Assembly (NCBI GenBank): GCA_005223125.1
Contig: NJBH01000024.1
Location: forward strand, 1 to 60,401
Length of the DNA stretch: 60,401 nucleotides
Origin: Promethearchaeota archaeon Loki_b32
GTDB taxonomy: Archaea > Asgardarchaeota > Lokiarchaeia > Sigyniarchaeales > SOKP01
Reading direction: 5' to 3'
Shown here: in pieces, positions 53,651-59,961 of the stretch
How the letters are laid out: each line of letters opens with the position of its first letter
Position numbering within the stretch: position 1 is the first letter of the stretch
Notes under the pieces: generated by a model
Told to the model about the DNA's origin: nothing
Databases searched by the model: none
The model's input: the letters and a program-made list of their open reading frames with translations, nothing else
Translations under genes and position numbers: made by a program

Positions 53651-54066
53651 AATTCGAGCTGCTGTAGCAAGAGCTTCTGTATTAGAAAAGTAAAATGGAT
53701 TATCGAGTTGTCCCTCATGCTATATTTACCAACCCCCAAGTTGGAAGCGTTGGTTTTACCGATCTTCAAGCAAATCAGTTACGTTTTGATTGCAGATGTA
53801 ATACGATTCCAATTGGGTTCGTAGCTAAATCCAAAATCCTTAATGATGATAGAGGATTACTAAAAATCGTTATTAATAGAAAGACAGAAGAAATTTTAGG
53901 CATTCACATTTTATCTACTAATGCTGCAAATCTAATTCATGAAGGGGTTATGATTATTAAGAATCATATGACTCTTGATGATGTTATTAATACATTGCAC
54001 GTTTTCCCTACTTTATCAGAAGCTATTAAACTCACAGCACAATCCTTCAAACGAGAATATCTGTAA
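53651..54066 (+). pseudogene. C-terminal remnant of a MerA/dihydrolipoamide-dehydrogenase-like flavoenzyme
   Basis: Residues from 53695 on (DYRVVPHAIFTNPQVGSVGFTD through HVFPTLSEAIKLTAQSF) are the C-terminal dimerisation domain of the mercuric reductase/dihydrolipoamide dehydrogenase family. The FAD and NAD domains are missing. Just before it, in another frame, AAVARASVLEK (about 53651-53691) looks like the preceding helix, offset by a frameshift. So it is a truncated and frameshifted remnant. The ATG at 53695 is internal to the family and may be spurious. It lies next to ArsR genes, as merA-like genes often do. Confidence 0.75.
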
Positions 54067-54172: not shown

Positions 54173-54538
54173 TTAAATTAAATAACTTCTCTTTAAATTT
54201 TTATTTATTTCATAAGAGGTGAATTTTCCTTTCTTAACACCATAAATTAATCCTGCTTGATCTAATATTTTTATATGGTGAGAGATAGCAGGTTGAGATA
54301 AATTTAAAATTGCTGTCAGTTCGCAGACACACATTTCTTTTTTTCCTATCAAGTTATAAATTAAAAATCTAACTCTATCTCCTAGTGCTTTAAAATAATT
54401 AACTTTTTCAATAAAATTTTTTTTAGTTAAAATTTCATCTTTATTTCTCTCTAAAGATTCAATGTATTCGAGAATATCCCTATCTATTTTAAAATACTTA
54501 ATTAATTTTTCTATTTCTTCTTTACTCTTTAAATCCAT
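54173..54538 (-). CDS. ArsR-family transcriptional regulator
   Basis: A 121-residue winged-helix regulator. The DNA-binding core is RVRFLIYNLIG..., then LNLSQPAISHHIKILDQAGLI near 79-99 and the wing GVKKGKFTSYEI. The motif EMCVCELTA near 66-74 contains the paired Cys of the ArsR/SmtB metal sensor site. It probably represses metal or arsenic genes and is released by As(III) or a similar thiophilic ion. A second ArsR gene lies upstream on the same strand. It runs toward the MerA/Lpd-like remnant. Confidence 0.85.
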   Translation of the reverse strand: MDLKSKEEIEKLIKYFKIDRDILEYIESLERNKDEILTKKNFIEKVNYFKALGDRVRFLIYNLIGKKEMCVCELTAILNLSQPAISHHIKILDQAGLIYGVKKGKFTSYEINKNLKRSYLI

Positions 54539-54696: not shown

Positions 54697-55119
54697 TCAT
54701 ACAAAATTAAATAATTCAAAAAATTTTCTAGAATTCTCTATATACTTCTGAAATTGTTCTTTTACTAATTCATAATGTGTAAAATAGCCTCTTTTTATAC
54801 CTCTTATTATTCTCATACCTTCAAGTATTTTTAAATGATGAGAAATCGAGGATTGTGCTTTATCTAAAATTGCTTCCAATTCACAGACACAATAATCTTT
54901 ATCATTCAACAATTCTACAATTTTAAGGCGAGTTTCATTTCCTAAAACATTGGAAAATTTGCTAAAATTTGTTATACTTTTGTTTTTATTCAATTTAATA
55001 CCAATTTCTCTTAAGGTACTAAAATAAGGTTCTATATCTTTATCTTGAAGATCAAAACATAGTTTTAGACTATTAATTAATTCAGCTTTCCTTTCACTTT
55101 TAATTTGTATCACTTTCAT
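54697..55119 (-). CDS. ArsR-family transcriptional regulator, divergent to acr3
   Basis: A 140-residue regulator. A ~45-residue N-terminal helical extension precedes the winged helix: NVLGNETRLKIVELL, then LDKAQSSISHHLKILEGM and IKRGYFTHYEL. DYCVCELEA near 88-96 carries the metal-binding Cys pair, here next to the DNA-binding helix. It diverges from the ACR3-type exporter gene across a 175-base region and most likely controls it in response to arsenite. It is related to the ArsR at 54173 and to that at 59977. Confidence 0.88.
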   Translation of the reverse strand: MKVIQIKSERKAELINSLKLCFDLQDKDIEPYFSTLREIGIKLNKNKSITNFSKFSNVLGNETRLKIVELLNDKDYCVCELEAILDKAQSSISHHLKILEGMRIIRGIKRGYFTHYELVKEQFQKYIENSRKFFELFNFV

Positions 55120-55294
55120 TGTTTATATTGTCTTCAATATTTATAATGAACAAATCTATAAAAATATATTTAAATTGAATTTGATCAAAGTAAATCGAAT
55201 TATTTAAATTTAAATCATTCTTTTAATTGCATAACATATAACTTAAAAAAATATAACTTCAAATATAAAAAATTGATATAATTAGTTGATTATC

Positions 55295-56467
55295 ATGAAT
55301 GATCAAACTGAAACAGAACATGAACATCGTGATTTTGAGAGTAGTCGATATGAACCTGAACATGAAGGTTTAGGAATATTTGATAAATTACTCCCATTAT
55401 GGGTTGTAATTTGTATAGCAATAGGAATTTTATTCTCTCTATATGTACCAGGACTTAGTGAAACTATTGAATCTATTCAGATAGCGGGCATGTCTATTCC
55501 CATAGCGATATGCTTGATTGTAATGATGTATCCGGCAATGCTTAATATAGAGGGTTCGGAGTTGGTGAAGGCTGGAAAAAATCCTAAACCAATAATTTTA
55601 ACGCTCTTTTCAAATTGGGTTGTTGCAACTTTTGTTGGTTTAGCTGTGGCTCTCATTTTTGTACCAGACAACGAACAATTAGTTCTGGCCATAATCTTAC
55701 TCCATGCAAGCCCTTGTACGGCGATGGTTTTGGTTTGGGGATGGTTGGCACGAGGAAATCAAGCACAAAATGTAATTATAACTAGTATAAACACAATAAC
55801 AATAATCATCTTATATGTTCCGGTCGTAATGCTTCTTGTCTTCATTGCTAATATTACATTAACTAAGCCAATTCCTTTAGACACATTAACGTTATTAATT
55901 GCTTTGCTTATTTTTATCGGATTACCATTAATAGCGGGAGTGTTAAGCAAAAGAATTTTGATAAAACGGAGAGGTGAAGAATGGTTTAACAAAAAGTACC
56001 GCCCAGCTGTAGGTAAAGTAGCAATCATAGCATTATTAATGACGTTAATTGTTATTTTTGCCTTAAATGGCCAAGTTCTAATACAATACCCAAATATTCT
56101 GATTAGAGTTTCTATTCCCATTTTAGTTGGGCTTTTAACTGTCCTAATTTATAATGTAATAGTTACTAAATTAGTCAAATTAAGGTATCAAGATGCGGTT
56201 ATTACGATAGTTGTTGGTTCTTCTAGTCATTTCGAAATCGCGATTGCTGTTGCCGTTGCCATGTACGGAATAGGATCATATACCGCTTTGGGAACCACAA
56301 TGGGATTATTTTGGGAGGTCCCTTTAATGCTTTCCGTGGTATATATCTCTAAATATCTTGGAAAACATGGATTCTGGGAAGGTTATCCGTGCATGGTATG
56401 CTATAAGTACCCTTGTATCTGTGGCGAAAAAAAATACCCTACAATAAAAAAAAAAGTTAAAAAATAG
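55295..56467 (+). CDS. acr3: ACR3-family arsenite efflux permease
   Basis: About 390 residues with ten hydrophobic segments and the conserved ACR3 region SPCTAMVLVWGWLARGN near 145-161, containing the essential Cys, plus GSSSHFEIAIAVAVAMYG near 310. It exports arsenite (and possibly antimonite) through the membrane by proton antiport. Start ATG 55295 is preferred to TTG 55286. The N-terminus is rich in Glu/His, and the C-terminus ends YPCMVCYKYPCICGEKK, a Cys-rich tail that may bind the metalloid before export. Controlled most likely by the divergent ArsR. Confidence 0.9.
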   Translation: MNDQTETEHEHRDFESSRYEPEHEGLGIFDKLLPLWVVICIAIGILFSLYVPGLSETIESIQIAGMSIPIAICLIVMMYPAMLNIEGSELVKAGKNPKPIILTLFSNWVVATFVGLAVALIFVPDNEQLVLAIILLHASPCTAMVLVWGWLARGNQAQNVIITSINTITIIILYVPVVMLLVFIANITLTKPIPLDTLTLLIALLIFIGLPLIAGVLSKRILIKRRGEEWFNKKYRPAVGKVAIIALLMTLIVIFALNGQVLIQYPNILIRVSIPILVGLLTVLIYNVIVTKLVKLRYQDAVITIVVGSSSHFEIAIAVAVAMYGIGSYTALGTTMGLFWEVPLMLSVVYISKYLGKHGFWEGYPCMVCYKYPCICGEKKYPTIKKKVKK

Positions 56468-56534
56468 ATTTAACTTTCTCATTTTTTATATTTATTTTAT
56501 ATTTTTTATAGTTAACAACTGGGAGGTGATAGTT

Positions 56535-56891
56535 TTTAAGAGAATTACTCTCCAAATAAGCATTCCCTTGACTGGGTTATCGGAAGGCAAAAGTTTTACT
56601 ATTGATCTTGATGATGAAGCTAACTTTGTACAAGCATTAGCAAAGGTTGACAAGTATGTATCTGAACATCCAAAAAAATCGATCTTTCCAATATTTAACA
56701 ATTATATCCATAATTATCTGCAACTTGTGTGGAATCCTGAGACGAATGAAATTTATGAAGACATCGGATTATATGCCTATGGCCCCGATGAGCAGGGTAA
56801 CCTCCGAAAATTTATGCCTTTACGGGAAGATATTGAGTTTAACCTATATCCCAATAGCGTAATTGATATACAACCCGATTCTGGATGTTGA
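56535..56891 (+). CDS. Duplicated small protein A1 (beta-grasp-like?), non-standard start
   Basis: I do not recognise a family. About 118 residues, strand-rich: FKRITLQISIPLTG, FTIDLDDEANFVQALAKVD, then KSIFPIFNNYIHNYLQLVW, NEIYEDIGLYAYGP, FMPLRE and a last strand YPNSVIDIQPD. The strand-helix-strand order is compatible with a ubiquitin-like beta-grasp fold, but the C-terminus is DSGC, not diglycine. GTG at 56526 overlaps the GGGAGG ribosome site, so the true start is probably further on. The paralogue at 57016 aligns its first residue with TTT 56535, 8 bases after the site. A 32-residue microprotein gene follows 9 bases later. Confidence 0.6.
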   Translation, partial: FKRITLQISIPLTGLSEGKSFTIDLDDEANFVQALAKVDKYVSEHPKKSIFPIFNNYIHNYLQLVWNPETNEIYEDIGLYAYGPDEQGNLRKFMPLREDIEFNLYPNSVIDIQPDSGC

Positions 56892-56900
56892 TGAGAAAAA

Positions 56901-56999
56901 GTGAGAAATAGACTAGATATAGGGGAGTTTAAGACGGTTATACGAAAAAAATTTGGTAAAAATAATGAAATTTTTGCACATTATTTCAAAAATAAATAA
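56901..56999 (+). CDS. Duplicated microprotein B1, 32 residues
   Basis: GTG 56901 to TAA 56999. The product (starting MRNRLDIGEFKT and ending FAHYFKNK) aligns along its whole length with microprotein B2 at 57373: shared RLD.G.F, KK.GK.NE and FAHYFK. Conservation between the two copies and the identical position behind the A-type gene show that this is a real gene despite its size. No family is known to me. It is basic, helical and has one conserved His. Confidence 0.6.
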   Translation: MRNRLDIGEFKTVIRKKFGKNNEIFAHYFKNK

Positions 57000-57015
57000 G
57001 AATGGGTGATTTTAG

Positions 57016-57360
57016 ATTAAAAAGATAAATTTAACGATATTTGCACCTGACCCGGAGAAAGTCCTTTCAAAGGGTCTAAATTATACTGTTGACATCCAAG
57101 ACAACGGCACATTTATTGATGCCATAAGTAATATTGATAAGCAAGTGATAATTAATCCCGAAAAATCAATTTTCCCATTATTTAAAGGATTAATCAATAG
57201 TTATCTTCAATTGATATGGGATGCAGAGGAAAATAAAATTTATGAAGATTGTGGTGTGGATGCGTATGGACCAAACAAAGAATTCATACCATTAAGGGAA
57301 AATATCGAGTCCAATTTATATCCAAATAGTACTATAACAATAATTGCACATGCTGATTGA
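57016..57360 (+). CDS. Duplicated small protein A2 (beta-grasp-like?), apparently ATT-started
   Basis: A 114-residue paralogue of A1 (KKINLTIFAPDPEKVLSKGL, KSIFPLFKGLINSYLQLIW, KIYEDCGVDAYGP, FIPLRENIESNLYPNSTITI). The frame opens right after TAG 57013-57015 and contains no ATG, GTG or TTG until codon 44 (GTG 57145). ATT 57016, 6 bases after a GGGTGA site, is therefore the only sensible start. A start at 57145 would cut off the conserved first third. The C-terminus is AHAD, without diglycine. The B2 microprotein gene starts 12 bases after it. Confidence 0.6.
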   Translation: MKKINLTIFAPDPEKVLSKGLNYTVDIQDNGTFIDAISNIDKQVIINPEKSIFPLFKGLINSYLQLIWDAEENKIYEDCGVDAYGPNKEFIPLRENIESNLYPNSTITIIAHAD

Positions 57361-57372
57361 TGAGCTGATAAT

Positions 57373-57480
57373 ATGAAAGAAAGATTAGATTACGGTACTT
57401 TTAGAAGGACAATTATGAAGAAATACGGAAAAGAGAATGAAACTTTTGCACATTATTTTAAATTTAAAAGGGGCAAATAA
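57373..57480 (+). CDS. Duplicated microprotein B2, 35 residues
   Basis: ATG 57373 to TAA 57480. The product starts MKERLDYGTFRRT and ends FAHYFKFKRGK; 17-18 of 31 aligned residues equal those of B1. It is located 12 bases behind gene A2, as B1 is behind A1. It looks like a small helical basic partner of the A protein. Too short for routine gene calls, but supported by the duplication. Confidence 0.6.
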   Translation: MKERLDYGTFRRTIMKKYGKENETFAHYFKFKRGK

Positions 57481-57591
57481 AAGAATGAATGATATCTTTT
57501 AAAGAAATTATAGTAAAAGATTGACAATAGGATTGCGTCCTATTTACCCTTATAGTTTTTAAAACTACTAAAAGTATTAAAATGTTATATT

Positions 57592-59667: not shown

Positions 59668-59961
59668 TTAAATCAAACCTTTTGCCTTCAATAAGTCTGG
59701 GAGTTTTTTCTTCAAAGCAAATGATGTTGTAACGATTTCTTTTCCATCAATAACTACACTATTACCATGCAAATTCAATCTTCTTGCTTCTTCAGAATCT
59801 AAATTTTTTGTATCGAATGATATATACTTATTATAAGGTGTAATTACCTGAAAAACGAGATTCATAAATCTTTCCCATTGGCAAGCGCATACATTTAAAG
59901 GCACATAAATTTCTACTTTAAGTTTATTTTCTTTTTGAAGTTCACTCTCTTGTTGAACCAT
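59668..59961 (-). CDS. Thioredoxin-fold-like protein of the ArsR operon
   Basis: A 97-residue protein with a thioredoxin-like outline: strand KVEIYVPLNVCACQWERFM with CAC near 25-27 in the active-site position, a middle strand KYISFDTKNLDSEEARRLN, and the strand pair GNSVVIDGKEIV near 66-77. Such small proteins accompany ArsR and DGC genes and may deliver a metal(loid) or act as a redox partner. It starts 15 bases after the ArsR gene and ends 1 base before the DGC gene. Confidence 0.6.
   Translation of the reverse strand: MVQQESELQKENKLKVEIYVPLNVCACQWERFMNLVFQVITPYNKYISFDTKNLDSEEARRLNLHGNSVVIDGKEIVTTSFALKKKLPDLLKAKGLI

Follow-up and report, generated by a model that had tools for sequence, protein, structure and literature searches.

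A predicted selenoprotein family with two adjacent selenocysteines in the arsenic gene neighbourhoods of Lokiarchaeia

The window, i.e., the whole stretch of 60,401 nt analysed from Promethearchaeota archaeon Loki_b32 (contig NJBH01000024.1), carries two tandem genes behind an ACR3 arsenite efflux transporter gene, with a SECIS element following them (Table 1). An earlier note had described two tandem units after ACR3, each composed of an A gene and a separate gene for a microprotein partner B, with A1 resembling A2 and B1 resembling B2. The units, both resemblances, and the place after ACR3 are all present. The division into A and B genes is wrong, as B is the C-terminal domain of the A polypeptide and is reached through two UGA codons encoding selenocysteine (Sec, U).

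Table 1. Coordinates of the genes and elements discussed for the window.
Feature	Position	Strand	Remarks
Second ArsR-family repressor	54173–54538	−	Same neighbour cluster
ArsR/SmtB-family repressor	54697–55119	−	Divergent from ACR3
ACR3 arsenite efflux transporter	55286–56467	+	Directly upstream of A1, same strand; E 1.9e-80
Selenoprotein 1 (A1-UU-B1)	56526–56999	+	β-grasp domain (predicted), Cys-Sec-Sec (CUU) motif, C-terminal helical domain
UGA UGA pair of protein 1, decoded as Sec-Sec	56889–56894	+	
C-terminal domain of protein 1 (formerly B1)	56895–56996	+	Continuous with A1
Selenoprotein 2 (A2-UU-B2)	57022–57480	+	Asp-Sec-Sec subfamily with conserved Cys on strand 3
UGA UGA pair of protein 2, decoded as Sec-Sec	57358–57363	+	
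C-terminal domain of protein 2 (formerly B2)	57364–57477	+	
SECIS	57489–57524	+	AUGA core 57489–57492; stem 57494–57500 with 57515–57521; A-rich apical loop; GA core 57523–57524
Second hairpin (conserved), behind the SECIS arm	57526–57544	+	Loop around UUGCG

A1 and B1 form a single reading frame, and so do A2 and B2, with each A part closing with TGA TGA and B continuing in frame. Specifically, A1 ends with TGT TGA TGA GAA AAA GTG and A2 with GAT TGA TGA GCT GAT AAT ATG, and B1 and B2 run onward in the same frames to TAA stops at 56997–56999 and 57478–57480, respectively. TGATGA terminates an open frame of at least 90 codons only at these two sites in the 60-kb window. The A-UU-B unit has a size of about 150 residues, and the segment after UU has about 32. 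The codon-position values are 0.226/0.156/0.414 for B and 0.252/0.141/0.484 for A, with a third-position excess as in coding sequence. A1 and A2 are 51% identical, and their subfamilies (CUU and DUU) are also apart in other genomes. Hence, the two genes did not arise by a recent tandem duplication.

The GTG at 56526 overlaps the Shine-Dalgarno sequence of protein 1, and the true start may be a few codons further 3′. For A2, no ATG, GTG, or TTG start is possible. The listed GTG at 57145 would cost A2 about one third of the A domain, including the first two strands and the helix. The sole start near a Shine-Dalgarno sequence is the ATT at 57022 (GGGTGAT, 5 nt upstream; region 57004–57030), and A2 probably starts at this ATT or at some later non-standard codon. 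From the nearest upstream stop to the first strand, 31 of 73 family members have no ATG, GTG, or TTG; judging from the sequences, a non-canonical (AUU-like) start seems common across the family. Annotation software stops at the UGA pair, truncating and overlooking the A-UU-B genes.

A read-through profile search over 227 genomes of the phylum retrieved 77 full-length members in 59 genomes, all of which belong to the class of the window and which represent seven families of that class. The named relatives are Candidatus Lokiarchaeota/Lokiarchaeia genomes. A scan of genome contigs with the A3 profile gave 21 named Lokiarchaeota loci, and a single-protein query gave no match. The genome of the window has two further full copies (contig C24), which keep TGA TGA and the in-frame B, and one more copy (contig C28) that is broken by the contig end. 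Both in-frame TGAs are kept in all of the 77 full-length members, a few members have three TGAs, and none of the 77 has Cys, TAA, or TAG at the UU site. Three subtypes are found, which are referred to as CUU (the A1 type), DUU (the A2 type), and UGUU. Conservation in the alignment is unbroken through UU, with invariant positions on either side. No ATG, GTG, or TTG is present within seven codons after UU in 14 of 73 members, or within 20 codons in ten of them, and in these 10–14 members B cannot be a separate gene.

These relatives bear out the view of the earlier note that the A and B parts are real and conserved, as the homologue search it had suggested in related genomes found both parts in every one of the 77. 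By the note's own criterion, its view would fail if further copies of the A gene had lost the B frame; every full-length copy has B in the frame of A. It had also known no family for either part, and indeed no credible Pfam or NCBIfam match was found for the 59 members tested. A few members matched PqqD (E 0.003–0.2), which we judged to be chance, and a PDB sequence search returned no match. A weak match in G084 is an ordinary MoaD-like protein ending with GGG and not a family member. A degenerate DUU copy (L071; G025:C90) has an extra TGA, lacks the conserved Cys, and is probably a pseudogene.

The genome encodes SepSecS (E 5.8e-146) and SelB, and contains two selD genes, each with an in-frame TGA. 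The tRNA-Sec gene adjoins SepSecS (G000, C57:28551–28609; L119). Compared with the uninterrupted gene of G010, it is broken by one insertion in the region of the D-arm and another in that of the T-arm. Odd insertions in some Lokiarchaeal tRNA-Sec genes are on record (PMC9723677). Another candidate for tRNA-Sec, C29:46414–46514, was rejected, as we read its folded sequence as that of an ordinary tRNA whose anticodon is TCC and which contains an intron-like insert. A general reassignment of UGA was ruled out, since five out of the 40 long ORFs of the window have TGA as their stop.

The element behind the second gene has a SECIS model score of 74.6 bits. Across the family, the SECIS layout is AUGA, a 7-bp stem, an A-rich (AAA) loop, and GA, located about 107–139 nt past the first UGA in most members. 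Asgard SECIS elements are reported to have such an AUGA...GA core with an A-rich loop (PMC11227280). Across the 62 elements of our alignment, each of the seven pairs of the upper stem covaries with two-sided changes, and 95.4% of the cells are paired. The whole structure beats all 500 shuffles (uncorrected for relatedness) and all slid controls (corrected). Taken by itself, the window's SECIS hairpin shows no unusual stability (z −0.24 and −1.57). The second hairpin after the SECIS often has a UGC-containing loop, and its core pairs reach 91.9%. This hairpin, the SECIS arm, and the weakly paired flanks may constitute a three-way junction. An Rfam search of the locus returned no relevant match. 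Hairpins resembling the second one, as judged by eye, are also seen behind hdrA (L256) and selD (L118).

Counted from the first UGA, the SECIS of the window follows at 131 nt for protein 2 and at 600 nt for protein 1. As no other SECIS was found near A1 in the window, the element is probably common to both genes. Likewise, hdrA-frhD of Asgard archaea has one SECIS for neighbouring genes (PMC11227280). The locus of the closest relative (G017, L156) has the order ACR3, A1, SECIS, and an LRR gene, with A1's own SECIS directly behind it. Hence, A2 has probably come to separate A1 from A1's SECIS in the window. A covariance-model scan of the genome returned three family elements, followed by an element behind a small TGA-containing ORF, and then by hdrA. 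Known as a selenoprotein gene, hdrA contains an in-frame TGA, and the match directly behind it has an E of 0.048. The element behind the small ORF is located at G000:C70:14679–14719 (L255; E 3.3e-5; ORF at about 1234–1489). This ORF has an in-frame TGA (EGGUACLMFGDP), its product is probably membrane-anchored, and it is a candidate for a further selenoprotein. As to the family itself, we conclude that A-UU-B is almost certainly a new selenoprotein family with adjacent selenocysteines and not a micro-operon.

We modelled the read-through proteins with UU entered as Cys-Cys. The models are confident, with pLDDT values of 91.1 (A1) and 89.1 (A2). The best nine PDB fold matches of the A2 model are SAMP1, CysO, Urm1, and MoaD-related chains, each being a weak match (E 0.025–0.26), and the fold search with the A1 model was diffuse and uninformative. 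Profile comparison with MoaD/ThiS of related genomes gave a probability of 19.8% over 98 columns with the deeper template and 60.6% with the shallow one, and the 14 controls all gave 1.3% or less. In the profile alignment, the GC of the family's GCUU falls on the GG of MoaD. No PF02597 match was found for the family. On the strength of the predicted structures, the A domain very probably has a β-grasp fold, which lends support to an earlier guess of a ubiquitin-like fold; the absence of a diglycine end from A, stated along with that guess, was confirmed. The family is probably a β-grasp protein descended from, or convergent on, the sulfur carriers, but it is not one of them, since it lacks the diglycine and continues into a helical domain.

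The neighbourhoods of 37 loci were compared. ACR3 is present in 25/37, ArsR in 26/37, and a small CAC-motif protein in 21/37. ArsC and ArsM are also among the neighbours, with ArsC (cluster 13) in 6/37. ACR3 lies within 5 kb in 23 of the 30 loci from the window's taxonomic family and in one of the seven loci from other families. Among these seven, three have a cation-efflux transporter without ACR3, and two have aldehyde ferredoxin oxidoreductase genes. In the genome of the window, both copies of ACR3 adjoin family members. One or more genera have a CpaM-HgcA-like fusion and an HgcB-like ferredoxin within the cluster, which are a possible metal(loid)-methylation system. We consider it likely that the family is involved in arsenic or related metal(loid) handling.

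Three side observations concern these neighbours. The CAC-motif protein of the window (59668–59961, minus strand) appears as the C-terminal domain of the arsenite methyltransferase ArsM in L165, L166, and L169, and on C24 and C28 a CAC-motif protein is preceded by a Cys-rich ORF like the ArsM N-terminus. The fusion of a CpaM-like methyltransferase and an HgcA-like corrinoid protein is found beside the HgcB-like ferredoxin in L167–L169, L177, L178, L180, L181, L189, and L190. An ORF at 53695–54066 of the window has only the dimerisation domain of pyridine nucleotide-disulphide oxidoreductases (E 1.3e-28), and the catalytic part is absent.

Aside from UU, a third S/Se residue is present in all of the 73 aligned members at one of three places. 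It is a Cys at −1 in 53/73, a Cys at position 80 in 17/17 DUU members, and a Sec at −2 in 3/3 UGUU members. The degenerate DUU copy L071 lacks Cys 80. The pattern is phylogenetically clustered and may reflect only a few evolutionary events. Position 80 should be near UU, because it starts strand 3, which pairs with the last strand in the β-grasp. The residue pattern suggests that UU and the third Cys or Sec constitute a putative three-chalcogen metalloid site. As three chalcogens suit As(III), we propose a carrier role. Both UGAs are recoded via the Asgard eukaryote-like 3′ UTR SECIS and the genome's own archaeal Sec machinery, as the sequences, the covariation, and the machinery genes support. 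In the proposed role, the vicinal selenols and the further Cys/Sec would bind As(III) and perhaps Sb(III) or Hg(II) as well. The bound As(III) would be handed to the ACR3 exporter or to ArsM/HgcA-like methylation proteins, with ArsR controlling the operon. Such binding and hand-over for efflux or methylation, derived from the neighbourhood and the residue pattern, has an even chance of being the mechanism. As a whole, a UU selenoprotein with a shared SECIS and an As(III)-carrier function is the best explanation, and we lean slightly towards it. With more reserve, we suggest that a sulfur-carrier fold may have turned into an obligate vicinal-diselenol metalloid chaperone, specific to Lokiarchaeia, having adjacent Sec-Sec and no Cys form, with one SECIS directing four Sec insertions in the window.

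The main rival to the As(III) carrier is a redox partner of ArsC or ArsM. The same selenoprotein would use Sec-Sec as a redox centre (diselenide/selenylsulfide), either supplying electrons to ArsC or reducing As(V)/disulfide intermediates of ArsM. An adjacent C-U-U could cycle, an ArsC of the thioredoxin/glutaredoxin-coupled type is beside several members, and most characterised selenoproteins are redox enzymes, as is generally known (see also PMC13188914). We regard this role as unlikely, for the predicted fold is β-grasp rather than thioredoxin-like, ArsC is found in a minority of the loci while ACR3 is found in most, and the third S/Se residue is kept in three differing places. Moreover, a Cys-for-Sec swap is seen in 0/77 copies, whereas Cys forms are usual in redox selenoprotein families.

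An improbable role for the same selenoprotein is that of a selenium/sulfur carrier like MoaD, SAMP, or CysO, whose UU tail would bear an activated chalcogen or a metal for cofactor assembly, e.g., of tungsto-enzymes. Sulfur carriers are the closest fold matches, and UU occupies the position of their GG tail; aldehyde ferredoxin oxidoreductase genes are present in a few loci, and an ordinary ThiS-like gene is near L163 and L170. However, UU is internal with a conserved C-terminal domain beyond it, and there is no diglycine end. The conserved neighbours include no recognisable E1-like activating enzyme, and the main neighbourhood is arsenic detoxification. Finally, it is hardly credible that translation really stops at UGA UGA and that B is a separate, translationally coupled microprotein partnering A: although an early GTG, ATG, or TTG (at most seven codons into B) is present in 59/73 members and tandem stops followed by re-initiation occur in nature, B is always in the frame of A, 10 to 14 members lack a start codon, conserved residues flank UU, a SECIS is behind the genes, the genome has the Sec machinery, and the UGUU architecture is homologous.

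The family connects Sec with the way archaea deal with arsenic, and it lends itself to testing why selenium would be indispensable for metalloid handling. Its Sec residues, which are immediate neighbours in all full-length members, provide a test case for successive Sec insertions that depend on a eukaryote-like SECIS, in the closest archaeal relatives of eukaryotes. In Asgard genomes, genes that end with TGA-TGA and have a 'microprotein' behind them may be mis-annotated selenoproteins.

Among known systems, MoaD, ThiS, SAMP1, CysO, and Urm1 have the predicted β-grasp in common with the family, whose UU sits where their GG tail lies. Different from them, the family has GC-UU or AD-UU instead of a Gly-Gly end, an extra C-terminal helical domain, and a large loop insert (about residues 48–80). 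Seven selenoprotein families are described for Asgard archaea, i.e., SelD, FrhA/VhuU, HdrA, FrhD/VhuD, Prx-like, AhpF-N, and DsbA-like (Huang et al. 2024, PMC11227280). Asgard/Lokiarchaeal selenoproteins share with A-UU-B the AUGA_GA eukaryote-like 3′ UTR SECIS, the A-rich loop, and the same machinery, but A-UU-B matches none of the seven families, having tandem Sec-Sec and no Cys homologue. The Asgard survey was queried with previously reported families only (PMC11227280). A search of that design was unable to detect A-UU-B, which adds an archaeal selenoprotein family beyond the reach of that survey and is not among the 11 archaeal families listed in PMC13188914. In the literature covered, which was partial so that an earlier mention is possible, we found no relevant report of adjacent, consecutive, or tandem selenocysteine.

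The closest parallel in logic is the bacterial arsenic/organometal proteins with multiple Sec. These metal(loid)-linked selenoproteins comprise ArsM/DUF2284 (NF041536), ArsM/AhpD (NF041537), UXPK-star (NF047649), MbdU (NF045648), and the SAO system (PMC13188914). They resemble the family in having several Sec per protein or operon, an arsenic or organometal context, and Sec as a proposed metal ligand, and differ from it in domains, in lineages, and in motifs, which are UxxG, CxxU, and CU instead of UU. Their NCBIfam models gave no match to the family, and neither did ArsD in Pfam/NCBIfam. The likeness to the metallochaperone ArsD is in the proposed mode, in which As(III) would be bound at a vicinal Cys/Sec site on a small protein of the ars operon. 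ArsD, which is thioredoxin-like in fold, serves ArsA. In contrast, the A-UU-B family is predicted to be β-grasp with Sec ligands, and its partner would be ACR3 or ArsM.
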